Below are positions 33,015 through 59,291 of a stretch of DNA of 64,000 nucleotides, piece by piece. This stretch comes from a virus: positions 56,846 through 120,845 of IMG/VR virus record IMGVR_UViG_3300030001_000223. One strand, given 5' to 3'. Within the stretch, counting starts at the first letter, position 1; the number at the start of each line of letters is the position of its first letter. The notes below the pieces were generated by a model. It had not been told where the DNA came from and searched no databases. It saw nothing but the letters and a program-made list of their open reading frames with translations. A program made the position numbers and the translations under genes.

Positions 33015-33065
33015 ATCTTACTACTTTATGAATATAATGTCAAACTATTTATGTTAATTTGTTTA
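33015..33065 (-). promoter_or_regulatory. Promoter with upstream dyad, driving ligA
   Basis: On the - strand: AAACAAATTAA, 10 bp, TTGACA (33038-33043), 17 bp, TAAGAT (33015-33020). Both boxes match the sigma-A consensus well. The upstream AAATTAA half has the same 10-bp spacing as at five other promoters. Confidence 0.85.
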
Positions 33066-33074
33066 AATATTAAT

Positions 33075-34646
33075 TTAACCTAATCTTAAATAGTTATTTG
33101 TACCACTAGTGATTCTTAATCCATCATATTCTTGTACTGTTAATCCAAAATCCTTGACTAATTTCTTTTCTGTCTCGTCCATATCTTCATATTTTTTAGT
33201 AGCAAAATCTGGGGGCAACCAATTCTTACCTTTTCCACTCAAAATATTGAAAATCTCGAGATGTTGTTTATTTTTGTATTTGATATGAATAGTTTGTTTT
33301 TGATAACAATCTAAAATGAAATGCTCAGTTTCTATATTCTTATCACATCGTTTAATTGCTTCAACTATCTCATTTGTATCAATATTATATTTTGTTCCTT
33401 TTATATTGTTGAATATTATGTTCAAATCATTTAATGTATCAGGAACTCTATAAAGATAATTACCATAGTATCCTATGATTGATTTATTATTTATCTTGTA
33501 ACAACTGTTAGTTTTCCACCCAGAGAAAAGATAAATATTTTTATTCCACATTGTATCAGAATAATAGCTTTTATAAGTTAAATCATCAAATACTCTAGCT
33601 ACAGTTTCTTCATAGCTTTTTGGTATAGCCTGTATTAATTCTTCATAGAAATATCTAACATTCTCTATTGTAAAAGCTATATTCTGTTGTTTTTCCATAT
33701 TACACGAAAAATTATCTCTCAACTTAGTAGGTAGTTTCTTTTTAAATTCTGTTTCTTCAATAAATTTATTCCAATATTTTAGTGTTAAATGTGCTATAAA
33801 TCCATTAACAGTTAATTTATCAGCATGAACTTTATCATCACATAATCTTATTACATTTTCAACACCAAAGCCTGAAAGCAATTTACTAACTCTCATTTGT
33901 TCTTTAAATAATTCAATAGAAGCATTTTTAGCAACGTTAAATTCAAAAACTAACTTTTCTAATTTATTCATATTCGGTATTAGAGATTGCAGATTATTAA
34001 TATGAATATTGGGATTTTCCCTTTTAAATTCTCTTTCAAACATAGTTTCAGTATTGGACATTGGAACATTTATATATACCATTGCAGTTTCTACATCTGT
34101 TTCTCTTTCTGATTCACTAAAAGCATTTTGTATGTATTCTATATCGCCATCATATTGTTCTATAAGACTTATAAGCTTCTTTCTAGTATTATTATATGGA
34201 TTTTTAAGAGTCTCTGCATTAAGTAAGCATAATACTCTTCCACCGACTCTTTCTTGTGTCTCTATAGCTTTTAAACAATGTTTATCTCCTTCAGAATAAG
34301 GAGGATTCATTATTATTAAGTCATAGAATTTAGGTGGATCGAATGTAAGAAAGTTATCCCATACAACATTATATTTCTGTCCTCTTAATAAATTATTTAA
34401 ATTTTCATCAAATTCAATAACATCAAATTTTAAATAATCCTTTGCTTTCTTTCCATAGGAAATCATTCTTCTACAATTAGTTTCGTAGTATTCTTCATAT
34501 GCCTGTACTATATCTCCTTTTCCGCATGAAGGCTCTAGAATATGTTGGATTGAAGCAAGACTTAGTTGTTCTTCTTTAAGTTTATCTAACATTTTATATA
34601 TTAATTTTTTTGGTGTTGGGTAAAAATCTTTATTTTCTGTAAACAT
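33075..34646 (-). CDS. N6-adenine DNA methyltransferase fused to DUF4942-like domain
   Basis: A 523-residue protein. SAM-binding motif I (LEPSCGKGD, about 38) and the catalytic NPPY (MNPPYSEGD, about 115) identify a class I adenine methyltransferase. The second half (about 285-450: GFIAHLTLKYWNKFIEETEF, then ARVFDDLT and IYLFSGWKTN) matches DUF4942, often found behind such methylases in phages. It probably modifies phage DNA against restriction. Promoter at 34699-34749; the dyad recurs again 31 bases before the start. Confidence 0.85.
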   Translation of the reverse strand: MFTENKDFYPTPKKLIYKMLDKLKEEQLSLASIQHILEPSCGKGDIVQAYEEYYETNCRRMISYGKKAKDYLKFDVIEFDENLNNLLRGQKYNVVWDNFLTFDPPKFYDLIIMNPPYSEGDKHCLKAIETQERVGGRVLCLLNAETLKNPYNNTRKKLISLIEQYDGDIEYIQNAFSESERETDVETAMVYINVPMSNTETMFEREFKRENPNIHINNLQSLIPNMNKLEKLVFEFNVAKNASIELFKEQMRVSKLLSGFGVENVIRLCDDKVHADKLTVNGFIAHLTLKYWNKFIEETEFKKKLPTKLRDNFSCNMEKQQNIAFTIENVRYFYEELIQAIPKSYEETVARVFDDLTYKSYYSDTMWNKNIYLFSGWKTNSCYKINNKSIIGYYGNYLYRVPDTLNDLNIIFNNIKGTKYNIDTNEIVEAIKRCDKNIETEHFILDCYQKQTIHIKYKNKQHLEIFNILSGKGKNWLPPDFATKKYEDMDETEKKLVKDFGLTVQEYDGLRITSGTNNYLRLG

Positions 34647-34698
34647 CTTTTAAAATCTCCTTTTTATTATATTATATTAATTTATTAACCTCTTATTT

Positions 34699-34749
34699 AT
34701 AATAGCATCTTTGGAATAATAATGCAATATGTTTATATTAATTTATTAA
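34699..34749 (-). promoter_or_regulatory. Promoter with upstream dyad, driving the methyltransferase
   Basis: Perfect dyad TTAATAAATTAA (34738-34749), then 10 bp, TTGCAT (34722-34727), 17 bp, TATTAT (34699-34704). A second perfect dyad copy (34677-34688) lies in the leader just ahead of AAAAAGGAG. Confidence 0.8.
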
Positions 34750-34757
34750 CTTGTTAT

Positions 34758-34789
34758 AAAAGAAAAGACAGAACTTTTACATTCTGCCT
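34758..34789 (-). terminator. Rho-independent terminator
   Basis: Read on the - strand, AGGCAGAA pairs with TTCTGTCT (one G-U) around an 8-nt loop, followed by TTTCTTTT. It lies 9 bases after the stop of the gene at 34798 and just before the methyltransferase promoter. Confidence 0.85.
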
Positions 34790-34797
34790 AACTCAAT

Positions 34798-35022
34798 CTA
34801 TTTTATCTCTTTATTATCGTGCTTATATATCTCAGCCATAAATCGGTTATTTAATAATGCTAAAATAGTTCCTAATACGACTATTACACATGATATTGAA
34901 ATGGTATCACATCCAATAAATAGTTTAAATAGTGTTGCAATAGTTAATACTGACCCGACTATATTAATAAATGCACTTAGCATACAACCTAGTGTTTTTA
35001 AAATACGTTTTAATACTTTCAT
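34798..35022 (-). CDS. Small two-span membrane protein
   Basis: A 74-residue protein with two hydrophobic stretches (about 13-35 and 41-58), basic start (KVLKRILK) and charged end (KHDNKEIK). Behind AAAAGGAGAGTAAATA. Might be a holin or superinfection-exclusion protein; no decisive motif. The 5' leader carries the hairpin at 35103-35124. Confidence 0.6.
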   Translation of the reverse strand: MKVLKRILKTLGCMLSAFINIVGSVLTIATLFKLFIGCDTISISCVIVVLGTILALLNNRFMAEIYKHDNKEIK

Positions 35023-35102
35023 TATTTACTCTCCTTTTCTATTTCTTTTTTTAATTTATTTACAACCTTTTAAAAGTATGATTTTAACTGAATTTACCAA
35101 CT

Positions 35103-35124
35103 TGGGAGGCTAGTAATAGCCCCA
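35103..35124 (-). ncRNA. Leader hairpin with TTAC loop (copy 1)
   Basis: On the - strand TGGGGCTA-TTAC-TAGCCTCCCA folds into a stem with one bulge. The 13-base core is repeated at 42983-42995 with changes that keep the pairing. Both copies lie in the leader 80-95 bases upstream of a start codon. Confidence 0.5.
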
Positions 35125-35138
35125 TTTATAAATCCAAA

Positions 35139-35630
35139 TTATTCTAAATCTACTTTATTTTCTGTAGTTATTGAACCTTTTGCGATATGTATGTTATATT
35201 TTTTATTAGCATCAGTCTTTTCTCCTAATAACCATTTAATAGTTCCATTTGTATAGTATTCTGTGTATTCTTCTATTAAAGAATTACCATCCTCAGTTAT
35301 TATAGTATCTGATTGTCGTGTTTCTATATATTTAGATTTATTATCTTCTGTATAAACTTTAAATTTATTATTGTCATTTTCGATTATCAAACTGTAATTA
35401 TCTTTGTTATATATTTCATTCTCATATGTTTTAATATAGGTTTTATTTGAGAAAGCACCCATTATGGTTGTTAATATTACTAAGATAATAAATGTTACAA
35501 TTGATAGAAAAATTCCAGCAACAAATAATTCTTTTATTGTTCCAAATTCAAAATTGTCTTCTTTAATAAAAAGGAATAAACCACCTCCAAATGTTAATAA
35601 TCCAATTATCCAAACTAAATGCCAAATCAT
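35139..35630 (-). CDS. Two-span membrane protein
   Basis: A 163-residue protein with hydrophobic segments at about 3-22 and 35-58, then an extended hydrophilic, beta-prone domain of about 100 residues (YNIHIAKGSITTEN near the end). No catalytic motif. The ATG follows GGGGGATATAATT two bases after the dUTPase stop, so it is in the same operon. Confidence 0.6.
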   Translation of the reverse strand: MIWHLVWIIGLLTFGGGLFLFIKEDNFEFGTIKELFVAGIFLSIVTFIILVILTTIMGAFSNKTYIKTYENEIYNKDNYSLIIENDNNKFKVYTEDNKSKYIETRQSDTIITEDGNSLIEEYTEYYTNGTIKWLLGEKTDANKKYNIHIAKGSITTENKVDLE

Positions 35631-35632
35631 AA

Positions 35633-36391
35633 TTATATCCCCCTATTACTAGAACCATATGCACCAGTTCCTCTATCTGTTGTGTCAGTAAATTCATCTA
35701 CTTCCTTCCAACTAATTTTAGGAACAAATCTTAATACTCCTTGACATATTGCCTTACCTTTTTTGATTTCAATAGGTGTGTCTCCTATATTGTCACATAT
35801 AACTCCTATATCACCTCTAAATCCTTCATCAATTGTAGATGGAGCATTAGCTATTCTTAGTTTAGTCTTTAATGAGTTCCCACTCTTAGGTCTAAGTTGT
35901 AATTCATAACATCTAGGTAATGCTATAGCTATTCCTGTTGGGATTGCAACTGTTTCATGTGGTTGAATAATAACATCTTCCATTGCAAATATATCCATTC
36001 CACTATCTGTATCATGTGCGTATGTGGGAATAATAGCATCTTTATGTAATTTCATAATCCTAACATCTACTATTTCTTCACCTCTATAAGTCCCATTCTT
36101 TACTATTCTTGATTCTACCATTGTTATATCTATTGTTGATTCTACCATTGTTATATCTATTGTTGATTTACCATTAGTATTTCTAATCACATCATCTTTC
36201 TTCATGCTATTATTTATTAATTGTTGTAGGACTTCTTCTATTTCTTGTAAAGTTAATGTATCTAAGACCTCATAACTACTTCCTCCTTGCCCATATACTT
36301 CTATTATTTCAATTTCATTAGCTAATTCACTTATTGCATCCTCTTTTGTATATCCTTCAAATAGGTCTAAAACTTTTTCATAATTTGTCAT
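35633..36391 (-). CDS. dut: dUTPase with N-terminal extension
   Basis: A 252-residue protein; the ATG at 36391 follows GAAGGAGAGATTTATA. The trimeric dUTPase motifs are at about 125-250: DSGMDIF, RPKSGNSLKT, NAPSTIDEGFRGDIGV, and the C-terminal P-loop-like RGTGAYGSS. It hydrolyses dUTP to dUMP, feeding ThyX. About 100 extra residues precede the core. That extension holds a perfect tandem duplication of nine residues (STIDITMVE twice, 36111-36164). The extension has no recognised domain. Confidence 0.92.
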   Translation of the reverse strand: MTNYEKVLDLFEGYTKEDAISELANEIEIIEVYGQGGSSYEVLDTLTLQEIEEVLQQLINNSMKKDDVIRNTNGKSTIDITMVESTIDITMVESRIVKNGTYRGEEIVDVRIMKLHKDAIIPTYAHDTDSGMDIFAMEDVIIQPHETVAIPTGIAIALPRCYELQLRPKSGNSLKTKLRIANAPSTIDEGFRGDIGVICDNIGDTPIEIKKGKAICQGVLRFVPKISWKEVDEFTDTTDRGTGAYGSSNRGI

Positions 36392-36474
36392 TATAAATCT
36401 CTCCTTCAATCTTTTATATTTTGTTAATTTATATATCCGTCTACATAACTGCATTTGTGAATAACTGTAGATAC

Positions 36475-36726
36475 TTAGTTGTCTTTTGCTAAATCATTCC
36501 AATCATCATATGTATAAATCTTATCAAGTTCTTTTTGAATATCAACTATTGTTTCTTCTATATTTCCTACAAGTTTATTTTCTTCTTCGGTATATTCATT
36601 TGACATTGATTCAGCATTAGCTAATATATCATTAGTGATTTTAGATACATTTTTTTCTAGTATCTCTTTTATCTTATCCATACTTTCTTTTAATCTTGTT
36701 AATTCTTCTAGCATAAATGAATTCAT
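36475..36726 (-). CDS. Small acidic coiled-coil protein
   Basis: An 83-residue helical protein (LEELTRLKESMDKIKEIL...VDIQKELDKIYTYDDW). The ATG follows AAGGATGTGAAAACTAATA. No membrane span, no motif. The gap to the dUTPase start contains an inverted repeat TCTACA/TGTAGA and a dyad copy. Confidence 0.6.
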   Translation of the reverse strand: MNSFMLEELTRLKESMDKIKEILEKNVSKITNDILANAESMSNEYTEEENKLVGNIEETIVDIQKELDKIYTYDDWNDLAKDN

Positions 36727-36753
36727 TATTAGTTTTCACATCCTTAATAATTA

Positions 36754-37323
36754 TTACGAATTTGTATATTTTCTCATATCGTAATGAGAACCTCTTTTTA
36801 TTATGATTGGTTCTAATCCTAAGTGTCTCCATCTTATAGCAGTAGCAATGCTTGAAACTACAGTTGGAGATATATCGTACATCTTAGCGACATCTTTATA
36901 AAGTATAGTACCTGATTTACATAAAGTATGTATTTCTTTAACTTTTTCGTCTGTTAATTTATTCATATAATTATTTGTACCACTTCTTTGTTGTAATTTT
37001 AATACTTCATGCTCTTGATTCTCTTTTTTAGTAACCCATTCTAAATTACTATCATAATTGTGATACTTAATTCCATCAATATGATTAACTTCTTGTCCAT
37101 CTTTTGGTTTACCTATGAACAAATAAGCGACTGCCCTATGTACACTTCCAGCATGAAATCCATCATTAAATGTTATACTGCATTGTAAATAGCCATCTTT
37201 ATTAGGTTTACAATTTAATAATTTACCTTTCTTCCCTATAATCCTTCCCATATTTGATACTTCATAGCCATTGTTTATTATCCATACTTCGTTTTCTAAA
37301 TCTTCTATATATTCTTTTCTCAT
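36754..37323 (-). CDS. HNH homing endonuclease (NUMOD4-HNH)
   Basis: A 189-residue protein. NUMOD4 start (VWIINNGYEVSNMGRI), HNH core (VHRAVAYLFIGKPKDG, then VNHIDGIKYHNYDSNLEWVT, then N-Q-E-H), and a C-terminal HTH (YKDVAKMYDISPTVVSSI) as in IENR-type tails. Free-standing homing nuclease of the I-HmuI/I-TslI kind. The start is unusual: AGAAAGGAG is followed by the dyad (TTAAATAAATTAA) and then the ATG directly. Confidence 0.92.
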   Translation of the reverse strand: MRKEYIEDLENEVWIINNGYEVSNMGRIIGKKGKLLNCKPNKDGYLQCSITFNDGFHAGSVHRAVAYLFIGKPKDGQEVNHIDGIKYHNYDSNLEWVTKKENQEHEVLKLQQRSGTNNYMNKLTDEKVKEIHTLCKSGTILYKDVAKMYDISPTVVSSIATAIRWRHLGLEPIIIKRGSHYDMRKYTNS

Positions 37324-37379
37324 TTAATTTATTTAACTCTCCTTTCTAAAAAGTCCATAACATGTAGTTTTTAACAGGT

Positions 37380-37577
37380 TTATTTTGCTTCATATATTGA
37401 TATATGTGTGGGTTTATAATCATTTTCATCAACTTTATAAACCATATCGTTCCATTCAAAATATGGATATCCTGTTTGCTTTACTAATTCAAAGAAAATA
37501 TTTATGTTCCCTATAAATATGTATTTGGATAATAATATTTCTTCCTTTTTAATATTTGTTTGTTGTTTTATATTCAT
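37380..37577 (-). CDS. Small hypothetical protein
   Basis: A 65-residue protein whose ATG (37577) follows GAGGATGATTAAA; the ATG three codons earlier overlaps the ribosome-binding site. It starts MNIKQQTNIKKEEILLSKY. Contains an aromatic cluster (YPYFEWNDMVYKVDE). A perfect dyad (37603-37614) lies upstream. Function unknown. Confidence 0.55.
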   Translation of the reverse strand: MNIKQQTNIKKEEILLSKYIFIGNINIFFELVKQTGYPYFEWNDMVYKVDENDYKPTHISIYEAK

Positions 37578-37645
37578 TTTAATCATCCTCGCTTTGTTTA
37601 TATTAATTTATTAACTACCCTTAAAATATCTGCTTTATTGTGACT

Positions 37646-38065
37646 TTAACCTATAGTAGCTTCTAATTTACTTCTAACGCCATCTTTTACTTGTGTATAT
37701 TTGTAATGCGGAGCATTGTCTTCATTAATTAATGAGTTCATATATTCTCCAGTCATCTTTCGAGAAATACTTAATAGTAAATCATCGCAAGCTACATCAT
37801 AAAAGATAATATAATCACTTGTAGTACCTTCAACTTGTGTCCAATATACTAATAGGTTATCATTTGTATTCAGTTCATTAATCAAATAATCATAAGCCTT
37901 ATCTCGTATTGCACCACATACACTATCTATATCACAAGTCTTATCATATGAAAATATAATGGTATTATTGTTGTCTGTATTTCTATATACTGCAAATCTT
38001 CCTTTTGAGTTAATTAAATCTAATTCGTAATTTAAATTTCTTAATCCTAAAATCTTTTCTTTCAT
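37646..38065 (-). CDS. Hypothetical protein
   Basis: A 139-residue soluble protein behind AAGGGAGATATGTAAAA. Mixed alpha/beta, containing SYDKTCDIDSVCGAIRDKAYD and LLVYWTQVEGTTSDYI. Cys residues are not in a zinc pattern. No family recognised. Confidence 0.6.
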   Translation of the reverse strand: MKEKILGLRNLNYELDLINSKGRFAVYRNTDNNNTIIFSYDKTCDIDSVCGAIRDKAYDYLINELNTNDNLLVYWTQVEGTTSDYIIFYDVACDDLLLSISRKMTGEYMNSLINEDNAPHYKYTQVKDGVRSKLEATIG

Positions 38066-38081
38066 TTTTACATATCTCCCT

Positions 38082-38408
38082 TTATTTTATAGTTTTCATT
38101 AAATCATCTAATATTATATTATTTGGTAATCCTTTTGATTTTAACTTTAAATAATAGTCTACATTTTCTTTCATATGGAATACTGTACATTTCTCACAAG
38201 CAAAAACTTCTTTATTATTTCCTTCGGCATCTATATATTGTAATAAGTATCCACCCCATAAAGTATTTTGTATCTTACAACATTCTTCATATAAAGGACA
38301 GTAACACATTCTACAATCATACTTATTATCAGATATATTTGAATGACATGGATACCAATAACAATTAGTTCTAAGATTTAAATTATTAGTATTGGTTTTA
38401 ATCTTCAT
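38082..38408 (-). CDS. Cysteine-rich small-domain protein
   Basis: A 108-residue protein. The first 35 residues hold CYWYPCH, then YDCRMCYCPLYEECC, with a later CEKCTVFH, the pattern of the 'cysteine-rich small domain' (PF04071), often found near cobalamin or radical enzymes. The NrdJ next door is B12-dependent, so a link is possible. The best start is ATG 38408, which overlaps the end of the upstream gene by 11 bases; an earlier open frame has no ribosome-binding site. Confidence 0.65.
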   Translation of the reverse strand: MKIKTNTNNLNLRTNCYWYPCHSNISDNKYDCRMCYCPLYEECCKIQNTLWGGYLLQYIDAEGNNKEVFACEKCTVFHMKENVDYYLKLKSKGLPNNIILDDLMKTIK

Positions 38409-38604
38409 ATAGGAATTCCATTGCTTCTTCAAAAGTTTCAAATACATAATCTTCGTTTATTAATACATGTTCTTTTAAATGGTTATCATATAGATTAATT
38501 ATTGGGAGACAAGAGCTAGTAATTCTAACATAGCCCTTGAACACTCCTTCCTTAATCTTGAAATCACCATCTATATAATATATATCTTGGTTGCTTTCAA
38601 ACAT
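38398..38604 (-). CDS. Small hypothetical protein
   Basis: A 68-residue protein behind AATAGGAGATTAAATT, starting MFESNQDIYYIDGDFKIKEG and ending FETFEEAMEFLYED. Beta-strands followed by an acidic helix. Overlaps the next gene. No domain recognised. Confidence 0.6.
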   Translation of the reverse strand: MFESNQDIYYIDGDFKIKEGVFKGYVRITSSCLPIINLYDNHLKEHVLINEDYVFETFEEAMEFLYED

Positions 38605-38615
38605 AATTTAATCTC

Positions 38616-40574
38616 CTATTCACATTTAGTAAAGCCACAATCTACACAACTTATACATCCACCAGAATGTTCTAGTTCATGTCCACATTCGGGGCATTTA
38701 TTAAATCTTAATGCAAATGCAATATCCCCATTATCTTTTTTAAACTTTAATTCTTCATCTGTAAAGTTTGCTTTAGTTTCTACCATTTGTTCATTTAATT
38801 TATTTATTACTTCTATGGTTTGATTTGATATTTCTTTTAAAAATGTTTTTATTTCTCTTAATATAGCAGTTCCACAACTATTACCTTGACTTAATTGTAT
38901 TCCTTTTGCTCTTTGAGTTGAAAAACTATTGCATCCACCAACACCTTCAAAAGATTTCTCTATATTGAATAAGTTTCCTCCTAGTCTTAACATACCACTC
39001 ATTGCTATAACCATTCCTTGAAGATTTCTTTCACATCCTCCAGATCCTGACCTAATTACATACATGTCTTGTATTGCTTGTTCTGTATTTGACCAACCTA
39101 TCATTAATTTAAGTTTGCCACAACCTATTTTAACTTTTCTTTCGTAGTAAACTGTATCCTTAGCTTTTGGCTTCCATTGACCTCTTTCTAAAGTTGATAT
39201 TAATTCATTAGCTTTTTCTTCTTCTGTTTTTTCAGTAATCATTATACCTTGTCTTATAGGATTCGGTCTAAATATAGTGCAACCTTTAATTCCATTTTCC
39301 CAACAGAATTCATAAACCTTTTTAACATCTTCAAATGGATACTCAGTGGGGATATTAATAGTTTTACTACATGACATATCTACGTGAAATGCTATAGTTT
39401 TAAGAACATCTAAGTGTGCTTGTACAGGTAAATTCATTGCAGTAACAAAAATATCTTCTTTTACAATACAATCTTTATTACCTTTAATTTCATTCCATAC
39501 TTTGTAAGCATAATCCTCCATCTTAACTATCTTAATATCATCATCTGACTGACCACCTAATTTTACCTTCCTATCATACGATAGACTAAATATAGGTTCT
39601 AAGCCAGAACTTGTATTGCTCCCAAAAGTTAATGACATTGTGCCCGTGGGAGCAACGCTCATAATCTTTGAATTTCTGATGCCATATTTTAATATATCAT
39701 CAGCTAAATCTATCCATTCATTGTCTTTTTCCATATGTTTTTGAATATATCCACTTTTAATGTACTTTTCTCTATCTAAGAATGGGAAGCCACCTTTTTC
39801 TTTAGCTAACTGAACACTTGCCTTAAAGGCTTCTTTTGATATGAAGTTCATTATTTCATCAATGACTTCTAATGATTCTTTACTTCCGTAAACCATATTT
39901 AACATACATAAAGCATCTCCAAGCCCAGTAATTCCAAGCCCTATAGTTCTAAATGCTTCTTGATAGTTTCTATATATTTCATCTGGGAAGTTATTTATAT
40001 CAATTATATTATCTAAAAATTTAACTGCACTATGAGTTGTTTCGCTTAATTTTTTATAATCAATCTTTGCTTTAGATGTAAAAGGATTATCTATCATATT
40101 ATGTAAGAATATACTTCCTAGATTACATGCACCACCATAATCGTTACGGTTTAATGGTTCTTTTGTAATAGGGTTGTTCCCATAAACTGTTCCTGCTAAA
40201 TACTCAGCACAAGGATTACTACAAACAATATTTTCTATATACCATACTGTATTATCTTTATTCATGTTATCATAGAAGAAAATCCCTGGCTCTCCATTAT
40301 CATAAGCTTTCTTCATAATTGAATCCCATAAATATCTTGCACTTATTTCTTTCTTATATTTCCATTGTGATTCATCTTTTAAGACATATCCTTTATCATC
40401 ATATACTGGATAGTGTAAGAATATAGTTTCATCTTTTTTAACAGAATTCATAAAATCATTATCAACCATAACTGTTACATTAAAATGAACTAGTTTTCCT
40501 TCATCATAAGATTTTGCATTTATAAAATCTTCAATGTCCATATTATATATTGAGCATACGCCCATATTTGCTCC
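38616..40574 (-). CDS. nrdJ: Ribonucleotide reductase NrdJ, exon 2
   Basis: This exon gives 652 residues beginning GANMGVCSIYNMDIEDF, joined in frame to exon 1 for a 799-residue adenosylcobalamin-dependent (class II) ribonucleotide reductase. Visible: NPCAE (active-site Cys), the GACNLGSI region, the PTGTMSL loop, a C-terminal TSCPD-like region (GSGGCERNLQGMV) and a terminal zinc pair (CPECGHELEH...CVDCGFTKC). It makes deoxynucleotides without an NrdF partner. The apparent ATG at 40577 is intron sequence. Confidence 0.93.
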   Translation of the reverse strand, partial: GANMGVCSIYNMDIEDFINAKSYDEGKLVHFNVTVMVDNDFMNSVKKDETIFLHYPVYDDKGYVLKDESQWKYKKEISARYLWDSIMKKAYDNGEPGIFFYDNMNKDNTVWYIENIVCSNPCAEYLAGTVYGNNPITKEPLNRNDYGGACNLGSIFLHNMIDNPFTSKAKIDYKKLSETTHSAVKFLDNIIDINNFPDEIYRNYQEAFRTIGLGITGLGDALCMLNMVYGSKESLEVIDEIMNFISKEAFKASVQLAKEKGGFPFLDREKYIKSGYIQKHMEKDNEWIDLADDILKYGIRNSKIMSVAPTGTMSLTFGSNTSSGLEPIFSLSYDRKVKLGGQSDDDIKIVKMEDYAYKVWNEIKGNKDCIVKEDIFVTAMNLPVQAHLDVLKTIAFHVDMSCSKTINIPTEYPFEDVKKVYEFCWENGIKGCTIFRPNPIRQGIMITEKTEEEKANELISTLERGQWKPKAKDTVYYERKVKIGCGKLKLMIGWSNTEQAIQDMYVIRSGSGGCERNLQGMVIAMSGMLRLGGNLFNIEKSFEGVGGCNSFSTQRAKGIQLSQGNSCGTAILREIKTFLKEISNQTIEVINKLNEQMVETKANFTDEELKFKKDNGDIAFALRFNKCPECGHELEHSGGCISCVDCGFTKCE

Positions 40575-42055: not shown

Positions 42056-42105
42056 ATCATTACCTCTTTCTTTCTATTAATTTATTATATAAACTATTTT
42101 CATAG

Positions 42106-42408: not shown

Positions 42409-42422
42409 TTCAATCACCTTTC

Positions 42423-45326: not shown

Positions 45327-45407
45327 TATAATCACTCCTTTATTATTTTCTTAATTTATTAAAAACCCATTAAAACTATTCATTTATTTTGATGTCCGTA
45401 TTATAAA

Positions 45408-45704: not shown

Positions 45705-45756
45705 ATAATATACCAACTAATTTATAAAGTCAATATGTATCTATTAATTTATTTAA
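45705..45756 (-). promoter_or_regulatory. Promoter with upstream dyad
   Basis: AAATAAATTAA (45744-45754), 10 bp, TTGACT (45728-45733), 17 bp, TATTAT (45705-45710). The dyad overlaps the TAA stop of the 3D-domain gene upstream. Leader of about 17 nt to the ATG at 45683. Confidence 0.85.
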
Positions 45757-46327
45757 CTATATATCCACGTAGTTTTTTTACGCCATATGAATTAGCTCTT
45801 TTCTTCCATTGTTCTCTAGTTTCCCCATCCCATCTTTCAACATACATATCTATATGATTAGATGAATTAAAATTACTTCCACCTTTATCTGAGACAATAC
45901 GAGTTCCATAATCTTTTTCTAGAAATATTTTAGTTCCTAATGGCAATATATTATTTGCAATAACACCTCGTTCTAAAGGTCTACCCTTGCAATCAACATT
46001 TCCATGGATACTATTTTCTTCTTCAAGACCTGTATAAAAAGTAACTATAAACTCTTGCCACTCAATATTATCATCTTCTTTTACATTTTTCAATTCATTT
46101 GTCTTTTGTTCTTTAGATTCCTTTTTCTCAAGTTCTAACTTATCTTTTTCAAATTGTATTTCAAAACTTTTTAATTTAAAATCTTGTACCATTTCAACAT
46201 CAATTTGCTTTTCAATTGATTGCTCCGCTAGGCTATGAAACGGTGCTTGTACATTTGTTGGATAAGTAAATAATAAACTTGTACTTAACAAACATACAAT
46301 CCTCTTTCCTCTTAGCAATGTCATCAT
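45749..46327 (-). CDS. Secreted 3D-domain protein, probable lytic transglycosylase-like
   Basis: About 190 residues. A signal-peptide-like start (RGKRIVCLLSTSLLFTYP) is followed by a coiled, charged linker and then a 3D domain (about 95-190): VTFYTGLEEENS, GRPLERGVIANNILPLGT, IVSDKGG and SNHIDMYVE, with the conserved Asp residues (VSDKGG, HIDMY). 3D domains resemble the MltA catalytic core and act on peptidoglycan or in its binding. Two ATGs touch the ribosome-binding site GGAAGG; TTG at 46318 has the spacing usual here. Confidence 0.8.
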   Translation of the reverse strand: MMTLLRGKRIVCLLSTSLLFTYPTNVQAPFHSLAEQSIEKQIDVEMVQDFKLKSFEIQFEKDKLELEKKESKEQKTNELKNVKEDDNIEWQEFIVTFYTGLEEENSIHGNVDCKGRPLERGVIANNILPLGTKIFLEKDYGTRIVSDKGGSNFNSSNHIDMYVERWDGETREQWKKRANSYGVKKLRGYIVK

Positions 46328-48251: not shown

Positions 48252-48283
48252 CTTTTATTTCTCCTTTAATTATATTAATTTAT

Positions 48284-48586
48284 TTACTTTTTTATGTATC
48301 CACAGTCACAACCATATTTATACATGGTTTCATATACTTCTCTTCCTTGCATCTCTCCTCTTGGCTCGTCCCATTTATCAAGAAGAATTAAGCTTTCGCC
48401 ACAGCTAGGACATCTATCAGTTCTGTCAGCTAGTGAGTTCTTATCTTCTTCTAATTTATCGGCTAGTTCTTTAGGATTTTTACGAATATCTGAAACTAAT
48501 ATATTCAAATCTTGTATTGTTTCACTTACTTCATGATTATTCCTATTTATCATTTGTATTAATTCATATGTATCTGTATTTATCAA
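48284..48586 (-). CDS. Zinc-ribbon protein with TTG start
   Basis: A 100-residue protein with TTG start 7-8 bases after GAGGTGATAAG. The N-terminal half is helical. CPSCGESL and CDCGYIKK at the end make a zinc ribbon. First gene after a strong promoter at 48622-48673, so it heads the transcript of this group. Confidence 0.65.
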   Translation of the reverse strand: MINTDTYELIQMINRNNHEVSETIQDLNILVSDIRKNPKELADKLEEDKNSLADRTDRCPSCGESLILLDKWDEPRGEMQGREVYETMYKYGCDCGYIKK

Positions 48587-48621: not shown

Positions 48622-48673
48622 AGTTTACTACTTACAAAGTTATTTGTCAACTTAATTCTATTAATTTATTTAA
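48622..48673 (-). promoter_or_regulatory. Strong promoter with upstream dyad
   Basis: TTAAATAAATTAA (48661-48673), 10 bp, TTGACA (48645-48650), 17 bp, TAAACT (48622-48627). Closest to consensus of the dyad promoters. It lies downstream of a second promoter (48720-48748) in tandem. Confidence 0.88.
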
Positions 48674-50842: not shown

Positions 50843-50855
50843 TTTATAATTCCTC

Positions 50856-53168: not shown

Positions 53169-53471
53169 CTATACTTCCTCACTTTCTAAATCAATTTTAA
53201 ATTCAAATTTATATGGTAAGTCTGAATTATTAAATGTTAAAAAATCATTAAAGTTAGCAACAAACTTCTCTATTCTATCATCTATTCCAACTTCTTCAAC
53301 CATTAAATCTTGAAAGCAAGTAGTATTACCTTTTTCATTAGTGATATAATACCAAACGTCATATGCACAGTAATCACCACTAATTTCAACTTTATTTACT
53401 TCATATTCTTTTTGAGTCTCAAACCCATTTTCTATATCTTGTTCAAACAAGCCATTTAATTTAATCTTCAT
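53169..53471 (-). CDS. Small acidic hypothetical protein
   Basis: A 100-residue protein behind AAGGAGATATTGAA, starting MKIKLNGLFEQDIENG. Beta-rich N-terminal half with YCAYDVWYYI. No family recognised. Translationally coupled to the following gene. A perfect dyad copy at 53493-53504 is 22 bases upstream of its start. Confidence 0.55.
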   Translation of the reverse strand: MKIKLNGLFEQDIENGFETQKEYEVNKVEISGDYCAYDVWYYITNEKGNTTCFQDLMVEEVGIDDRIEKFVANFNDFLTFNNSDLPYKFEFKIDLESEEV

Positions 53472-53534
53472 TTCAATATCTCCTTACATCTATTAATTTA
53501 TTAATACCCTTTAAAATTTCTCTTTTAAGACCAT

Positions 53535-54218
53535 CTAATTAAAATAACTTTGCTTATACCAGTAACAGTCAAAAGCATTATCAACACAAAAATGTTCATC
53601 ATGATAGTCTTTATCTTTAAACTCATGAAAATATCCAAATTTCAATATTCGTTTTTCTGTCTCATCTAATTGTTGATCTTCATCAATTTTCTTGTGAACA
53701 CCTTCAATAGTATCTGATAAATACATTCCCTCTCTGCCATCACAACAACCAAAGAATATCTTATATGTATATAGTAATTCAGCAGTATTTAATAAGATTT
53801 GTTTTACATCATTATCATATCCAAATCTTTCTTGATTAAAATTAATACTTCTAATTAAATCACCATCATTATGCCTCAAAGTTGCAGACTTCAAATCAGC
53901 TAATAATTCCATAATATCAATTAAAGTCATGCCTTGTATTCCATTTCTAAAGTGTTCTGGATGATGTCTATTTGAATTATAATGATGACTTAATGCTACT
54001 TGCATTTCTTTAAGGAATTCCTTATATTCATCACTTCCATATGTACTTCCAACTAATTTAGGAGTATATTCACAAAATATTTCTACTTCAGGACTTTCTA
54101 ATTTACTTTTATCATGAAGTTTACCTCTTTGTTCTAAGTCTAAACTCCATTTGTTCAATATATTCTTTACATTGTCAATATGTTTCTGAGTTTCTTTTCT
54201 ACATTCTTTAATATTCAT
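53535..54218 (-). CDS. DUF5662-like protein with HHPE motif
   Basis: A 227-residue protein; the ATG at 54218 follows AAAAGGAGGACAAATAAGA. Helical throughout: RGKLHDKSKLESPE, then SHHYNSNRHHPEHFRNG, MTLIDIMELLADL. The HDKSK and HHPE motifs match DUF5662, a phage and bacterial family with HD-like His/Asp residues, activity unknown. An in-frame start at 54305 also has a ribosome-binding site and would add 29 residues, including a second KECKR-like copy. Confidence 0.75.
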   Translation of the reverse strand: MNIKECRKETQKHIDNVKNILNKWSLDLEQRGKLHDKSKLESPEVEIFCEYTPKLVGSTYGSDEYKEFLKEMQVALSHHYNSNRHHPEHFRNGIQGMTLIDIMELLADLKSATLRHNDGDLIRSINFNQERFGYDNDVKQILLNTAELLYTYKIFFGCCDGREGMYLSDTIEGVHKKIDEDQQLDETEKRILKFGYFHEFKDKDYHDEHFCVDNAFDCYWYKQSYFN

Positions 54219-54330
54219 TCTTATTTGTCCTCCTTTTAATACAATTGTTCTTTTACATTCTTTAATATATCTTGGGACTCTTTCATCCACAATCCCACTT
54301 ATCATTTATTAATCCTTCTTTTAACATTTC

Positions 54331-54414
54331 TTAAATCCAACCTTGTACTGTATTTAATCTGTAGTATAAAGCTTTTCTTTCCTCATATTCAAAGCATCTT
54401 AAATCCTTTGGCAT
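54331..54414 (-). CDS. 27-residue micropeptide
   Basis: ATG with a strong ribosome-binding site (AAAGGTGGTAGAATTTAA). Encodes MPKDLRCFEYEERKALYYRL and ends QGWI. Soluble, amphipathic. A dyad copy (54438-54448) sits just before the ribosome-binding site, as for longer genes. No homologue recognised. Confidence 0.5.
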   Translation of the reverse strand: MPKDLRCFEYEERKALYYRLNTVQGWI

Positions 54415-54577
54415 TTAAATTCTACCACCTTTCTATATTAATTTATTATATTCTTATAAAATGCGAATTTGATTTAAATTTAGTTCTATAATATTCGTAT
54501 TACTATTATATTTTATCGTAATTTTTATCACTTCTGAACTTTTCTAAGTTACATCATTCGTATTTTATATTTGTAAT

Positions 54578-54916
54578 TTATATGAATTTGATTTTTAGAA
54601 AATTCTCTAAATAGTAACAATATTTATTATAAAGTTCTTCTGATACATTTTCTAATTGTATATTTGTCTTTTTCAATTCTTTTTCTTTGAACCCACAAAT
54701 CCAGTGTTTGTTTGATTTTTCATCATAACTTAATACATATACATAATTATCTATTCCAGACCAATTTTTAATTATCCCTATTTGCTCTTTATCCATTTCA
54801 TCTTTTGGAACTATTACTACTTCGCCAATATGAAAATCATGTTTGTTGTTACTATAATATTCTTCATGTTTTTTAACATAATAAATAAATTCTTCTTCTG
54901 ATAATGTTTTTCTCAT
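54578..54916 (-). CDS. Hypothetical protein
   Basis: A 112-residue protein behind AGAGGTGAGATT. Starts MRKTLSEEEFIYYVKKH. Includes HIGEVVIVPKDEMDKEQIG and WICGFKEKELKK, a beta-barrel-like segment. Overlaps the upstream gene at ATGA. The 160-base gap downstream to 54414 holds only a small AACTT-AGAA-AAGTT hairpin. Confidence 0.6.
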   Translation of the reverse strand: MRKTLSEEEFIYYVKKHEEYYSNNKHDFHIGEVVIVPKDEMDKEQIGIIKNWSGIDNYVYVLSYDEKSNKHWICGFKEKELKKTNIQLENVSEELYNKYCYYLENFLKIKFI

Positions 54917-55245
54917 AATCTCACCTCTTTACTTTTCATCCACATATTAAACCTGTTAAATTGTGCCTCAACCATATAACATAAATCTTTTAATTCTGAT
55001 TCTATATCCTTTTTGACTAAAACATTTTCTTCATCAATTAGTTCTTCAACTGATTTAACTAAAGATTTTGTTATAATAGAAAATCTATCAACTTGTTTTT
55101 TAATATCTTGAATGCCATCTTCTCTTCCTTTAAAGTATTCTCCTCTAAACAATAATATGAACACTTGTCTTTGTTCTTTGGATATCTTATTTCCTTCAAT
55201 TAATTCGTCCACTAACTTTTCAATTTCTTTATCTTCCTTACTCAT
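54913..55245 (-). CDS. Helical hypothetical protein
   Basis: A 110-residue alpha-helical, charged protein (KEIEKLVDELIEGNKISKEQR...). The start follows AAGAGGTGAAATT. No membrane span or enzyme motif. Dyad copy upstream at 55268. Confidence 0.6.
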   Translation of the reverse strand: MSKEDKEIEKLVDELIEGNKISKEQRQVFILLFRGEYFKGREDGIQDIKKQVDRFSIITKSLVKSVEELIDEENVLVKKDIESELKDLCYMVEAQFNRFNMWMKSKEVRL

Positions 55246-55296
55246 AATTTCACCTCTTTTACTTCTATTAATTTATTTCCAAATAAAACAAGCTTT

Positions 55297-55728
55297 TTAA
55301 AACGATGTAGTATAATCCGTGTTGCAATTATTTATAGCTTTTTCAGGATTTTCAAAAATATTTCCTATGATTTCAATGTCTTCATTACATTCTAATTCAG
55401 ACCAAGATTCAAAATTATCTCTTTGTAAATACCATCCTGCATTCATACCTAATCCATCATGTAAATTTGCTAAATATGTAACTACGTAGCCAGAACTATC
55501 AATATATCCTTCATAGATTTCTTTGTTGTTTTTATCTTTAAATCCTACATATTCTAAAAGTATATATCTTTCAGATACATCTATTTTTTCTAAATGTTCC
55601 ATTCCCCAGTAACCTTTTAGACTTACTTCATATATTTTTCCATCAGCTAAATACAAATCATATCCATCAAGTTCATCCATACAATTATTAACTTTATCCC
55701 AAACTTTATATTTATGTTTTCTACTCAT
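55297..55728 (-). CDS. YopX-family phage protein
   Basis: A 143-residue protein. Pattern: HKYKVWDKVNNCMDEL at the start, FKDKNNKEIYEGYI in the middle and IEIIGNIFENPEK near the end, the YopX family of Firmicute phages (function unknown). The chosen ATG is 10 bases after GGAG and overlaps the previous stop by eight bases; a TTG one codon earlier is also possible. Confidence 0.88.
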   Translation of the reverse strand: MSRKHKYKVWDKVNNCMDELDGYDLYLADGKIYEVSLKGYWGMEHLEKIDVSERYILLEYVGFKDKNNKEIYEGYIDSSGYVVTYLANLHDGLGMNAGWYLQRDNFESWSELECNEDIEIIGNIFENPEKAINNCNTDYTTSF

Positions 55729-55960
55729 CAATTTCGCTCTCCAATCTATCTATTTTTCTTTCTAGTTCGTCATTATAACTATTAGCATCGTCTAGTTCAG
55801 CTTCAAGTTCCTCTATTCTAATAACACTTCCATCTACATTATTAAAACTATCTTCAAGCAACTCAAATATTTCTTTATCTATGTACTCTTTAATTTGTGG
55901 CAATATATTTTGCTTTTCATAAATTGTAACTGTTTGTCCATTCTCCAATGTTATAACCAT
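55721..55960 (-). CDS. Small coiled-coil protein
   Basis: A 79-residue protein behind TAAGGAGGGCGAGTAAAT. Beta hairpin at the start (MVITLENGQTVTIYEKQ) and a coiled coil from about 45 (IEELEAELDDANSYNDELE). Overlaps the YopX start. No family. Confidence 0.6.
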   Translation of the reverse strand: MVITLENGQTVTIYEKQNILPQIKEYIDKEIFELLEDSFNNVDGSVIRIEELEAELDDANSYNDELERKIDRLESEIDE

Positions 55961-55962
55961 AT

Positions 55963-56121
55963 TTACTCGCCCTCCTTATTTTTAACTATTGGTCGTTCTT
56001 TAAATATATCATTTAACATTTGTGTGGCTTCTTCATATGAATAATTATATTCTCTACACCACTTATAGATAACTTCGTTTAATTCATTTATTAATTCTTC
56101 TTTGCTAGTTCTATATTTCAT
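55963..56121 (-). CDS. 52-residue small protein
   Basis: Start ATG 56121 behind GAGGAGGGTAATA; encodes MKYRTSKEELINELNEVIYK and ends KNKEGE. Its start overlaps the end of the previous gene and its end provides the ribosome-binding site (AAGGAGGGCGAG) of the next. Helical. Function unknown. Confidence 0.6.
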   Translation of the reverse strand: MKYRTSKEELINELNEVIYKWCREYNYSYEEATQMLNDIFKERPIVKNKEGE

Positions 56122-56338
56122 TATTACCCTCCTCACTTATTTTTCTGATACCTAAATCATTGTTTTCTTTTATAAATTCAGATTTACCACCTAATAATAT
56201 CGCTCCTGTATATATTTGACCTTTTAATAAGTCATCTATCATATTTTCTATTCTATTAATAACTTCTTTATGATCTTCATCATTAGTAAATCCAAAATTT
56301 AAACTTAAATTAAATCCTATTATTTTGTTGTTATTCAT
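56111..56338 (-). CDS. Small hypothetical protein
   Basis: A 75-residue protein behind AAGGAGATGATACACAA, starting MNNNKIIGFNLSLNFGFTN. It has a beta strand and helix, then IYTGAILLGGKSEF. Overlaps the next gene by 11 bases. Unknown. Confidence 0.6.
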   Translation of the reverse strand: MNNNKIIGFNLSLNFGFTNDEDHKEVINRIENMIDDLLKGQIYTGAILLGGKSEFIKENNDLGIRKISEEGNNEI

Positions 56339-56345
56339 TTGTGTA

Positions 56346-56552
56346 TCATCTCCTTAATATTACAATTTCTTTAACATCATCAAAATCGATTTCCATTTCT
56401 GAATTTTCTCTATTCAAATAAATTGTACTTTCATCTGAAAAGTTATAGTCACCAATTAATATTTCATCATTATGTAAGTATATTTTTATGGTATCTCCTT
56501 CGTTAATAATTAAATCATTAAATTTTAAAGTCCATATTGTTTTTAAATTCAT
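56346..56552 (-). CDS. Small beta-barrel-like protein
   Basis: A 68-residue protein; the ATG follows AAGGAAGGATTGGTAATA. Alternating beta pattern (GDTIKIYLHNDEILIGDYNF, then DDVKEIVIL) resembles an Sm-like or SH3-like small barrel. Length fits LSm proteins, but the diagnostic motifs are not clear. Confidence 0.55.
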   Translation of the reverse strand: MNLKTIWTLKFNDLIINEGDTIKIYLHNDEILIGDYNFSDESTIYLNRENSEMEIDFDDVKEIVILRR

Positions 56553-56568
56553 TATTACCAATCCTTCC

Positions 56569-57015
56569 TTATATTCTATTTTTGATATCTTTTAATTCTT
56601 CTTCTATAAATTTTACTCTTGCTTGTAAGTTTTCTTTTCTCTTTTGTTCAGAATATACAATAGATAAGTTATGAGCCTCCAATTCTGATTGCTTAAATTC
56701 ATCTACTAAAATTTTATCAATTCCTTCTGATATGTAAAACTCACTATCACAACAATTGCAGATTGCACAATGTTTTTGAAAGTCGTCATATAATACCGTT
56801 TCATCTTCTATACCTTTGTATTTGTTTATTTTATAATTATTAAATTTTATACCTTCTTCTATACTTTGAACCAACTTGTTTTTATACTTTTCTTTAAATA
56901 TTGTATGATTTAATTTATCTTTAATTTTAAAGCTAATATCTACTAATAATATTGGAATAAATATTATTAAAATCATGAATATAATCATAAATAATATTAT
57001 CAGTAATTCATTCAT
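56569..57015 (-). CDS. Membrane-anchored Cys protein
   Basis: A 148-residue protein, ATG after AAAGGGTGATAATTGAAT. One long hydrophobic segment at about 3-27 (LLIILFMIIFMILIIFIPIL), then a charged helix, a CAICNCCD cluster at about 85, and a C-terminal coiled coil. An N-terminal anchor with cytoplasmic metal-binding part is likely. No known family. Confidence 0.6.
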   Translation of the reverse strand: MNELLIILFMIIFMILIIFIPILLVDISFKIKDKLNHTIFKEKYKNKLVQSIEEGIKFNNYKINKYKGIEDETVLYDDFQKHCAICNCCDSEFYISEGIDKILVDEFKQSELEAHNLSIVYSEQKRKENLQARVKFIEEELKDIKNRI

Positions 57016-57084
57016 ATTCAATTATCACCCTTTCTTAATTACATTAATTCGTTATATTCATTTAAAATCCAAGTTTTATTTGGA

Positions 57085-57372
57085 CTATGGTTTATCTTTA
57101 AAATCATCACAAGTAAAACCCCACCCACATGAACATTTATGTAATTTACACCAACCACCCTCTATATAATATGGATAATTTTTAATAAAATTTTTACATC
57201 CTTCACATTCTCCTTCAAAACCTTGTAATGGTTCTGAAACATATATCCCATCATGTGTCTTTATTAGATTAATATTTTCCTTTTTAGGTAATGGATTATC
57301 TTCTAACCATTTAGCTTGAGTTTCTTTTTCTTCTTTAGTTGAAAAAAATGCTTTTCTAAAATTTGCAAACAT
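57085..57372 (-). CDS. Cys-rich small protein
   Basis: A 95-residue protein; the ATG (57372) follows GGAAGGAAGTGAAATT. The C-terminal part contains CEGCKNF, then WCKLHKCSCGWGFTCDDF: six Cys and His residues as in a small zinc domain. N-terminus FANFRKAFFSTKEEK. Transcribed from the promoter at 57397-57448. Confidence 0.6.
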   Translation of the reverse strand: MFANFRKAFFSTKEEKETQAKWLEDNPLPKKENINLIKTHDGIYVSEPLQGFEGECEGCKNFIKNYPYYIEGGWCKLHKCSCGWGFTCDDFKDKP

Positions 57373-57396
57373 AATTTCACTTCCTTCCATAAAATT

Positions 57397-57448
57397 ATCT
57401 TACCATAGATTTTTAATTAATTCAATATGTTTCTATTAATTTATTTAG
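57397..57448 (-). promoter_or_regulatory. Promoter with upstream dyad
   Basis: AAATAAATTAA (57436-57446), 10 bp, TTGAAT (57420-57425), 17 bp, TAAGAT (57397-57402). The stop TAA of the upstream gene lies inside the dyad. Confidence 0.8.
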
Positions 57449-57695
57449 ATTTATATAAGATCTTTATAACAATTTTATAATATAATCTAATGAAAAATCC
57501 CACTATATCATCAAAGAACCATTGTATTTTAGTAATAATCTTTTTATACCAAGGTAAACTATTATAATATTCATAAATTAAATCCCATGCAGATTTCATA
57601 TTATTTAATTGTTCTTGCCCTCTTTTACTTCTAGTAACTTCACTAGTATCTATAGTTTCAATTGTTGAGCCATTTTTGAGTTCTATTTTATTCAT
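57441..57695 (-). CDS. Small amphipathic protein with possible membrane contact
   Basis: An 84-residue protein; the ATG follows GGAGAGTGAAAATA. C-terminal half is aromatic and basic (WYKKIITKIQWFFDDIVGFF) and may lie on or in the membrane. Overlaps the previous gene by eight bases. A longer open frame upstream is not supported. Confidence 0.6.
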   Translation of the reverse strand: MNKIELKNGSTIETIDTSEVTRSKRGQEQLNNMKSAWDLIYEYYNSLPWYKKIITKIQWFFDDIVGFFIRLYYKIVIKILYKSK

Positions 57696-58245
57696 TATTT
57701 TCACTCTCCATTCTAAATATTTCATTGTAAATATTAACATTATCATTACACGTAAATACATCTATAATTTTGCTCTCGCCATTACTAAATTTAACTCTCA
57801 TTTGATTAAATTTAAAATCATAACCTTCATAAATTTCAATAGGTAATCCATACATTGTATTAGGATAACTTTTAAATTTAGTATTATCAATAGTAGGTAT
57901 TTTCTCCAATAATACTTTTAATGCAAATGTCCCTATTTCTATTTTATTGGCTACTGGCGGTAATTGATTTAACTTTTCTGCCAATTTATCTAAATCATCT
58001 AATGTTATTGGTTTTGACATTGAAGTACAACTAGCAAACTTATTTTTTCCTGTAAGAATTGCTTTTGCTAATATATCTTTTATTTGTGATTCATTTAATT
58101 CTTCAGATTCAGTATTAAAATAATAATTAGGTTTATAACCTTTAAAGAAAGAATTAGTATATTCTTCATCATCGCCTAAAATATATTTATAAGCTTCTAT
58201 TCTATCTTCTTTAGTTAATGCAATCTTATTTAAATCTTTATTCAT
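57688..58245 (-). CDS. Hypothetical protein
   Basis: A 185-residue soluble protein. Start follows GGGAGTTGATAAATA, overlapping the previous stop by one base. N-terminal half helical (LTKEDRIEAYKYILGDDEEY), C-terminal half beta (LPIEIYEGYDFKFNQMRV). No motif recognised. Confidence 0.6.
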   Translation of the reverse strand: MNKDLNKIALTKEDRIEAYKYILGDDEEYTNSFFKGYKPNYYFNTESEELNESQIKDILAKAILTGKNKFASCTSMSKPITLDDLDKLAEKLNQLPPVANKIEIGTFALKVLLEKIPTIDNTKFKSYPNTMYGLPIEIYEGYDFKFNQMRVKFSNGESKIIDVFTCNDNVNIYNEIFRMESENNE

Positions 58246-58439
58246 TATTTATCAACTCCCTTAAAGTAACTGTATTCTTCAAATATTTTATCAGATTCTA
58301 TTCTTTTACCATCTACAAATAATCCACCTTTTCCCTTTTCTACTTTTTCATATTTGAAATTACATTCTTTTAAAATATCTTCGAAATCTTCATCAGTTAA
58401 ATTGTTAAATATACTTTTATATTTTTCATTATCATCCAT
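58245..58439 (-). CDS. Small acidic protein
   Basis: A 64-residue protein behind AAAGGGGATGTAAAAA, starting MDDNEKYKSIFNNLTDEDFEDI. A helix-turn-beta outline. The leader contains a perfect dyad (58473-58484). Unknown function. Confidence 0.6.
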   Translation of the reverse strand: MDDNEKYKSIFNNLTDEDFEDILKECNFKYEKVEKGKGGLFVDGKRIESDKIFEEYSYFKGVDK

Positions 58440-58546
58440 TTTTTACATCCCCTTTAATTATATTATATTCTATTAATTTATTAACTCCTGTTAAAATCAT
58501 GTTTTTATGTGGTTTTTAACCTAGTATTCATGCCATTTACAAGGTG

Positions 58547-58903
58547 CTATTTTTGTATGTAATAATTATTAATTGTCACATTAGACTTACTTTCTTCTTT
58601 AACCACTTTTACATTGTCTAAATTTAATATCAAATCAATTGAATCTCTTATCTGTATTAAATCTTCTTCTTTTAAAAATGAAAGTTGTCCCATTTTATAT
58701 TCGCCATCTACACCATCGTTTCTAATAACTAATGTAAAACTTCTATCTTGTACTGGAGACTTTGGATTAATTCTTTGTTCTGATATTATAATATTGCTCC
58801 TCGTTGTTCTCATTCTACCTAATGTTCCACTACACTTTCTGCTTAATTTAATCATTGGCTTTCCATTTTCTTTAATTTTAATTTCTCTTTCAAATTTATT
58901 CAT
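58547..58903 (-). CDS. Hypothetical basic beta protein
   Basis: A 118-residue protein behind AAAAAGGAGATTATTAAA. Contains LSRKCSGTLGRMRTTRSNI, a basic stretch that could contact DNA, and an LKEEDLIQIRDSIDLILN helix. Possibly a small single-strand-binding type protein, but not assigned. Confidence 0.55.
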   Translation of the reverse strand: MNKFEREIKIKENGKPMIKLSRKCSGTLGRMRTTRSNIIISEQRINPKSPVQDRSFTLVIRNDGVDGEYKMGQLSFLKEEDLIQIRDSIDLILNLDNVKVVKEESKSNVTINNYYIQK

Positions 58904-58927
58904 TTTAATAATCTCCTTTTTATTAAT

Positions 58928-59188
58928 TTATTTATCTTTTAACATATTTTTATAAATTGCTATACTTCTTTTACAACAATTAATATCACAATTCAAATCT
59001 TTAGAATTTCCATATTCATTATGACATTTTGCAACGTCCATTATTGTATGAGGTTTTGAAAACATTTCTTTACTTCTTAGTAATGCAGTATTATATTGAT
59101 TTTGTAATTCTTTAATTTCTCGTTCTAGTCTTTTTATATTTAATCTCAATTCATCACTTGTATATTCAGGTTTTTTAAATAAAGCCAT
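58928..59188 (-). CDS. Coiled-coil protein with Cys cluster
   Basis: An 86-residue protein: coiled coil at about 12-45 (LRLNIKRLEREIKELQNQY), then CHNEYGNSKDLNCDINCC near the end, a potential metal site. Ribosome-binding site AAGGAGG. Driven by the promoter at 59246-59291 through a hairpin leader. Function unknown. Confidence 0.6.
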   Translation of the reverse strand: MALFKKPEYTSDELRLNIKRLEREIKELQNQYNTALLRSKEMFSKPHTIMDVAKCHNEYGNSKDLNCDINCCKRSIAIYKNMLKDK

Positions 59189-59245
59189 ATATAATTTCCT
59201 CCTTAAATAAAAATAAGATACAAGATTTTCTTATCCTATATCTTT

Positions 59246-59291
59246 ATTCTATATCTATTCAGTTTCAAAGTCAAGTTATTTCTATTAATTT
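59246..59291 (-). promoter_or_regulatory. Promoter with upstream dyad half
   Basis: AAATTAA (59285-59291), 10 bp, TTGACT (59269-59274), 17 bp, TAGAAT (59246-59251). Just after the -10 box the RNA can fold AAGATA with TATCTT, enclosing AAG/CTT, so a 5'-end hairpin is expected here too. Confidence 0.82.

Follow-up and report, generated by a model that had tools for sequence, protein, structure and literature searches.

Our results showed that six identically spaced promoters in a viral genome represent only one of the settings in which a far more frequent, dispersed 10-letter word, AAYAAATTAA, is found. The window analyzed is the 64,000-nt stretch at positions 56,846–120,845 of IMG/VR virus record IMGVR_UViG_3300030001_000223 (total length 120,845 bp). 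The element has this asymmetric word as its core and a looser tail, TAGAAATA, with the full consensus TAAAYAAATTAATAGAAATA. Roughly one third of the genes in this family of large phages carry the word, at a density of about one site per 1.4–1.8 kb.

The core was counted in the last 50 nt before gene starts in 1,116 unique gaps from nine records. The form AATAAATTAA occurred 260 times (15.2 would be expected) and AACAAATTAA 88 times (2.9 would be expected). With few exceptions, the remaining single-base variants stayed at background or near it; the highest (T9A, T10A, and A12T) reached 1.5–3 times the expectation. Since only T or C is tolerated at one position and the other variants stay near background, the recognized word is AAYAAATTAA. 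The median between-group protein identity in these records is mostly 35–55%, so the shared word is not DNA inherited from a recent common ancestor. The records are metagenomic and possibly incomplete; near-identical copies were filtered by context, and some shared ancestry is left.

A position weight matrix (PWM) matched 66 sites in the source record (121 kb). A relative of 218 kb had 159 matches, a second relative 155, and the remaining element-bearing records 24–127; reversed-sequence controls gave 0–19. With an 18-base pattern and at most two mismatches, the larger clade records had 10–82 matches each, compared with 0–7 in the controls. Logos of PWM-selected sites are biased to the consensus, and the core counts, centre positions, and tail counts are based on the exact core instead. 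Unsupervised 9-mer enrichment recovered the word independently, as AATAAATTA: the source record has 97 co-directional gaps, and 48 of them contain it, where 4.4 would be expected. Chance or base composition as the source of the word was rejected by the shuffled, reversed-sequence, and single-base-variant controls. A host bacterial feature was not supported either: an exact-pattern scan of 84,980 genomes returned 28 matches across unrelated phyla, a chance-like result. The viral matches to the pattern clustered in a limited set of contigs, several of them multi-copy. No nucleotide-level relative was found among phage records, and the window had no Rfam match.

The original prediction described six minus-strand promoters, with exactly 10 bp from AAATTAA to the TTG of the −35 box and 17 bp between the −35 and −10 hexamers, and all six have this geometry at the coordinates given. 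In the window, the pattern AAATTAA-N10-TTG-N20-TANNNT has six minus-strand matches and no plus-strand match, and a −10 box is present at each minus-strand AAATTAA-N10-TTG. In 300 order-3 Markov versions of the minus strand the mean was 0.07 matches and the maximum 2. When 341 spacing combinations were scored, this one gave 6 and the runner-up 3; the full 120,845-bp record has one further match, on the plus strand. All six promoters carry the 20-bp element. The first (33015–33065; element 33046–33065, −35 TTGACA at 33038–33043, −10 TAAGAT at 33015–33020) is upstream of the NAD-dependent DNA ligase gene (30863–32911), and the second (34699–34749; element 34730–34749, TTGCAT, TATTAT) is upstream of a methyltransferase-like gene (33075–34646). 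In the third (45705–45755; TTGACT, TATTAT) the element, at 45736–45755, overlaps the stop codon of gene 45749–46291. The other three are upstream of open reading frames (ORFs): 48622–48672 (element 48653–48672, TTGACA, TAAACT; ORF 48284–48586), 57397–57447 (element 57428–57447, TTGAAT, TAAGAT; ORF 57085–57372), and 59246–59296 (element 59277–59296, TTGACT, TAGAAT; ORF 58928–59188).

Other parts of the prediction were not confirmed. The 10-bp spacing is not a general rule, as relatives have 10, 11, or 12 bp; in non-redundant cases from relatives, the gap from the 20-bp element to TTG was 2, 3, or 4 bp (n = 23, 19, and 21). The word is not promoter-specific, as most copies lie away from promoters. 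The dyad TTAATAAATTAA is complete only at 34699, and the other five sites have TAAATAAATTAA or AAACAAATTAA. In the 1,116 unique gaps, the two bases required for the left dyad arm are not conserved and C is allowed at the fifth base. A symmetric dyad operator was rejected, with the left arm free to vary in these gaps and only one of the six sites having both arms, TTAAT and ATTAA.

Promoters were identified by consensus match only. In 60 direct copies of the word, the AATT centre precedes the initial T of the −35 box by 14.5–16.5 bp, and 13 inverted copies have their centre likewise 14.5–16.5 bp before TTG; in a further five inverted copies the centre is 4.5 bp before it, and seven lie inside the −35/−10 spacer. 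The co-directional gaps of eight records contained 99 strong promoters: 36 with a direct copy, 13 with an inverted copy, 22 with another copy within 40 bp, and 28 with none. Direct promoter copies also keep GAAATA immediately upstream of −35, and the third tail position (TAGAAATA) was G in 58 of 74 of them; inverted and Shine-Dalgarno copies do not keep this G. At 2-bp spacing the element spans about −58 to −39. The −35 and −10 boxes are near-consensus in many element promoters, and some −35 boxes are weak (TTGCAT, TTGAAT). Because the placement of the AATT centre is independent of orientation, the sequences strongly imply recognition at the DNA level at promoters. A conserved distance upstream of −35 is thus supported at that level, and the symmetric dimer operator proposed with it does not fit an asymmetric word.

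In a third setting the core adjoins the Shine-Dalgarno sequence, its end mostly 16–32 nt before the start codon. Near starts, 260 copies were sense and 3 antisense, and in gaps of at least 100 bp the core end still peaked 16–32 nt before the start codon. Gene calls were made by a simple script and some start codons are approximate. Some gaps hold both kinds, the promoter copy first and the Shine-Dalgarno copy after it, as at 34699 and 34669 in the window. Minus-strand Shine-Dalgarno-proximal elements were found at 29955–29974, 32927–32946 (15 nt before the ligase start codon), 34669–34688 (the second copy, downstream of the 34699 promoter), 35043–35062, 37595–37614 (a full TTAATAAATTAA dyad without a promoter), 42069–42088, 45343–45362, 48267–48286, 53485–53504, 55260–55279, 58465–58484, and 58915–58934. 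On the plus strand they were at 11573–11592 and 16257–16276, both in the tail-gene (late) region, and at 20399–20418, after the structural genes; an intergenic element at 6284–6303 has a full dyad and no nearby promoter.

These positions bear on a reading without any phage protein, in which the word boosts expression as a UP-like A/T element for the C-terminal domain of the RNA polymerase alpha subunit and as an A/U-rich translation-enhancing leader, reused by copying. At 2-bp spacing the element lies in the UP region and GAAATA is kept upstream of −35, the peak of core ends before starts even in long gaps suits a leader, and late structural genes carry the word too. Both UP elements and A/U-rich leaders accept a wide range of sequences, however, and here nearly all single changes except T/C at one base are at background; the spacer copies at the Xre loci described below would not work as UP elements. 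We consider this reading unlikely, and a simple UP element as the whole explanation was rejected. The original prediction had suggested contact by a phage activator or by RNA polymerase alpha. Alpha alone does not fit the 10-base specificity or the promoterless Shine-Dalgarno copies, and a phage DNA-binding protein stays the best guess.

Gap copies are mostly in one orientation between co-directional genes, and in long gaps the core start also piles up at the preceding stop codon. These two features would suit a linker between genes, in which a short direct repeat at both ends of a gene lets recombination add, remove, and shuffle genes, with regulation secondary; a role in gene shuffling has reportedly been proposed for T4-type mobile regulatory cassettes. 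The mosaic gene content of these phages points the same way, and so does the only partly conserved carriage of the element by orthologues (Mantel-Haenszel odds ratio 3.75; 134 pairs with both and 228 with one only, non-independent pairs pooled). Site-by-site selection is indicated instead by the constant helical position at promoters, whichever the orientation, and by the scarcity of decayed copies with one mismatch. The pile-up at stop codons may come partly from stops within the element itself. A linker is, in our view, quite doubtful. Shared gene association as the sole account was rejected, given the only moderate conservation between orthologues.

A second repeated word, TAAAA-N5-6-TTTTAA, was observed in the gaps from a stop codon to the next start codon, with AGGT or a Shine-Dalgarno sequence after it. 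It occurs in gaps of the record G006 (for example 60572–60596, 61869–61893, and 81055–81079) and in Shine-Dalgarno-class gaps of G000 and G014. TTTTAA was 5–30 nt upstream of 35 of the 244 Shine-Dalgarno-class elements; a control interval gave 4 of 244.

The word differs between lineages. In G002, whose DnaE is 87–88% identical to that of the clade, AAAYAAATTATTAAATTAAT stands before TTGAC and AAAYAAATTA before the Shine-Dalgarno sequence, and G005 has AATAAAAATATAAT in both settings. A word changing in step across both settings is what would be expected of a trans-acting reader; concerted copying would also give this. Other words were seen in further relatives. The distant relative G006 (97,584–109,987) has its own promoter word, CTACTTGACA (CTACTTGAC in 16 gaps), with many copies in a region of long intergenic spaces. 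In G008 and G009 the palindrome AGTCAGTTTAAACTGAC is present in 5–6 gaps and is likely an operator of another kind.

Four element-bearing lineages (G001, G003/G024, G021, and G022) have a repressor-like locus, with one or two Xre-type helix-turn-helix (HTH) genes near a small gene. The promoter of this small gene has an inverted word in the −35/−10 spacer (TTGCTATTTATATTAATTTGTTATAAAAT), and another inverted copy follows about 38 bp further downstream. In G002 a related inverted-word pair is found close to the Xre gene, and the promoter spacing there is looser. The spacer position is the place expected for a repressor operator. The leaders of the Xre-type HTH genes examined had no Shine-Dalgarno-proximal copy. 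In the four lineages the promoter of the reversed Xre-HTH gene is flanked by TTCGAC and TGTCGAA (G001:38707–39097, G003:206476–206853, G022:73934–74272, and G021:135128–135580), which we take to resemble Spo0A boxes; host sporulation control of a phage repressor is conceivable. Intergenic TGTCGAA is mildly over-represented (4 vs. 1.2 in G001; 8 vs. 2.3 in G021). A conserved leader around an inverted element, TTTTGTCGAATG ... ATACTTAATACATAGAYAAGGAACAAACAATTC ... CTAGTGCAA, was also seen without a clear −35/−10 match (element starts G003:5082, G021:126650, and G001:10454), and is possibly a structured RNA.

The near all-or-none specificity points to a sequence-specific protein. The explanation we favor, tentatively and with somewhat less than even confidence, is that the sites are operators or stoperators for one phage-encoded DNA-binding regulator. 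This regulator would bind the asymmetric AAYAAATTAA and its tail at sites scattered over the genome. At promoters it would control initiation, from a position about 1.5 helical turns before the −35 box or, at the repressor-like locus, from within the spacer; at gene boundaries, where the sites are aligned with transcription and abut the Shine-Dalgarno sequence, it could have a polar action on elongation. The outcome would be the silencing of lytic genes in a prophage or plasmid state. One protein for all settings, and repression rather than activation, are suggested by analogy with the Cluster A stoperators of mycobacteriophages. A temperate, plasmid-like prophage state is plausible because the DnaE relatives in public records include Firmicutes plasmids and the element-bearing family has integrases, TubZ-like proteins, and Xre genes.

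Several points weigh against the regulator we favor. Activators and UP elements occupy a position centred near −50 more commonly than repressors do. The tight Shine-Dalgarno anchoring, kept even in long gaps, is not needed for a block to elongation, and late tail genes and integrases carry sites too. No cognate protein was identified in this analysis. Xre-type HTH proteins were not supported as the cognate factor; their loci have other palindromes (ACCAAAC-ATACGTTTGGT type), which the Xre proteins may bind instead of the word. Reversed Cluster A stoperators lose function (PMC9283540), and here promoter copies occur both ways. For an HU-like protein and the tyrosine recombinases, also weighed as factors, the evidence was neither for nor against. 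The position near −50 could instead belong to a phage activator that turns on a promoter class, with the Shine-Dalgarno copies read in RNA or serving another factor. The constant distance to −35 boxes, weak ones among them, agrees with this. An activator would leave the more numerous Shine-Dalgarno copies and the spacer copies unexplained, and in many of these promoters the −35 and −10 boxes are close to consensus. An activator in place of a repressor seems improbable.

It is possible, and we propose it with about the same reserve as the operator reading, that in AT-rich Firmicutes-type large phages one asymmetric 10-bp word marks, across the whole genome, the sites addressed by a single regulator, positioned by rule at −50, within promoter spacers, and directly ahead of Shine-Dalgarno sequences. 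The resulting stoperator-like or dual-level network would be independent of those in mycobacteriophages, and its near-exact code would be rewritten jointly across dozens of sites per lineage. If true, about one third of the genes in a 120–220 kb phage family would have readable control sites, and regulated gene starts could be predicted from metagenomic sequence alone. Finding the cognate protein would become a defined biochemical task, and the lineages, through their concerted site changes, would provide a natural experiment on regulator/site co-evolution outside mycobacteriophages.

The window has a G+C content of 26.7%. Its plus strand carries a block of contractile-tail genes and its minus strand replication genes (DnaE-type polymerase, topoisomerase II subunits, and NAD ligase). 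Two plus-strand tyrosine recombinases lie within a few kb (23458–24294 and 26496–27578), and between them is a putative HNH-type homing endonuclease (25417–26493) with a Pfam score slightly under the curated cut-off. TubZ-like (tubulin/FtsZ-family) proteins are encoded at G003:26903–27988, G021:99160–100323, G029:40123–41325, and G022:27473–28588, which suggests plasmid-type partition or an intracellular filament.

Like the UP elements of sigma-70 promoters, the promoter copies are A/T-rich, cover about −58 to −39, and have an A-run just upstream of −35. Unlike them, the word is near all-or-none and most copies are off promoters; we know of no UP elements before Shine-Dalgarno sequences or inside the spacer. 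The T4-type PeSL is reportedly a repeated intergenic cassette that pairs a promoter with a stem-loop and is linked to gene shuffling, whereas a general upstream hairpin was not supported here (30% vs. 21% in the null).

The stoperators and operators of Cluster A mycobacteriophages (L5, Bxb1) number 20–30 sites per genome (PMC9283540; PMC6550527). As in our records, a short asymmetric word is found genome-wide in short intergenic spaces, with some copies in promoters, a lineage-specific consensus, orientation with transcription (260 sense and 3 antisense near starts here), and comparable density (one per 1.4–1.8 kb here). The word and host group differ, and our element has tight Shine-Dalgarno anchoring, up to about 160 sites per record, and promoter copies in both orientations, mostly centred near −50, with gap copies one-way. 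Because no repressor was identified and the promoter orientation behavior differs, the element is not classed as a member of the Cluster A system. The SPBRE of Bacillus phage SPbeta, a temperate Firmicutes phage, is also a dispersed repeated element in promoter regions; in the part of the source consulted, it is a 15-bp motif at about ten promoter sites bound by the phage repressor MrpR, with no Shine-Dalgarno class of the kind found here reported (PMC10516654). The SAS/ESAS of Cluster K mycobacteriophages have the word GGGATAGGAGCCC at translation starts, with a function that is not known (PMC3203893). They share with our element a short asymmetric repeat at gene starts, nearly always in one orientation and partly conserved between orthologues. 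In our phages, however, the core is AAYAAATTAA and not GGGATAGGAGCCC, it lies upstream of the Shine-Dalgarno sequence, and it is also anchored to −35 boxes.

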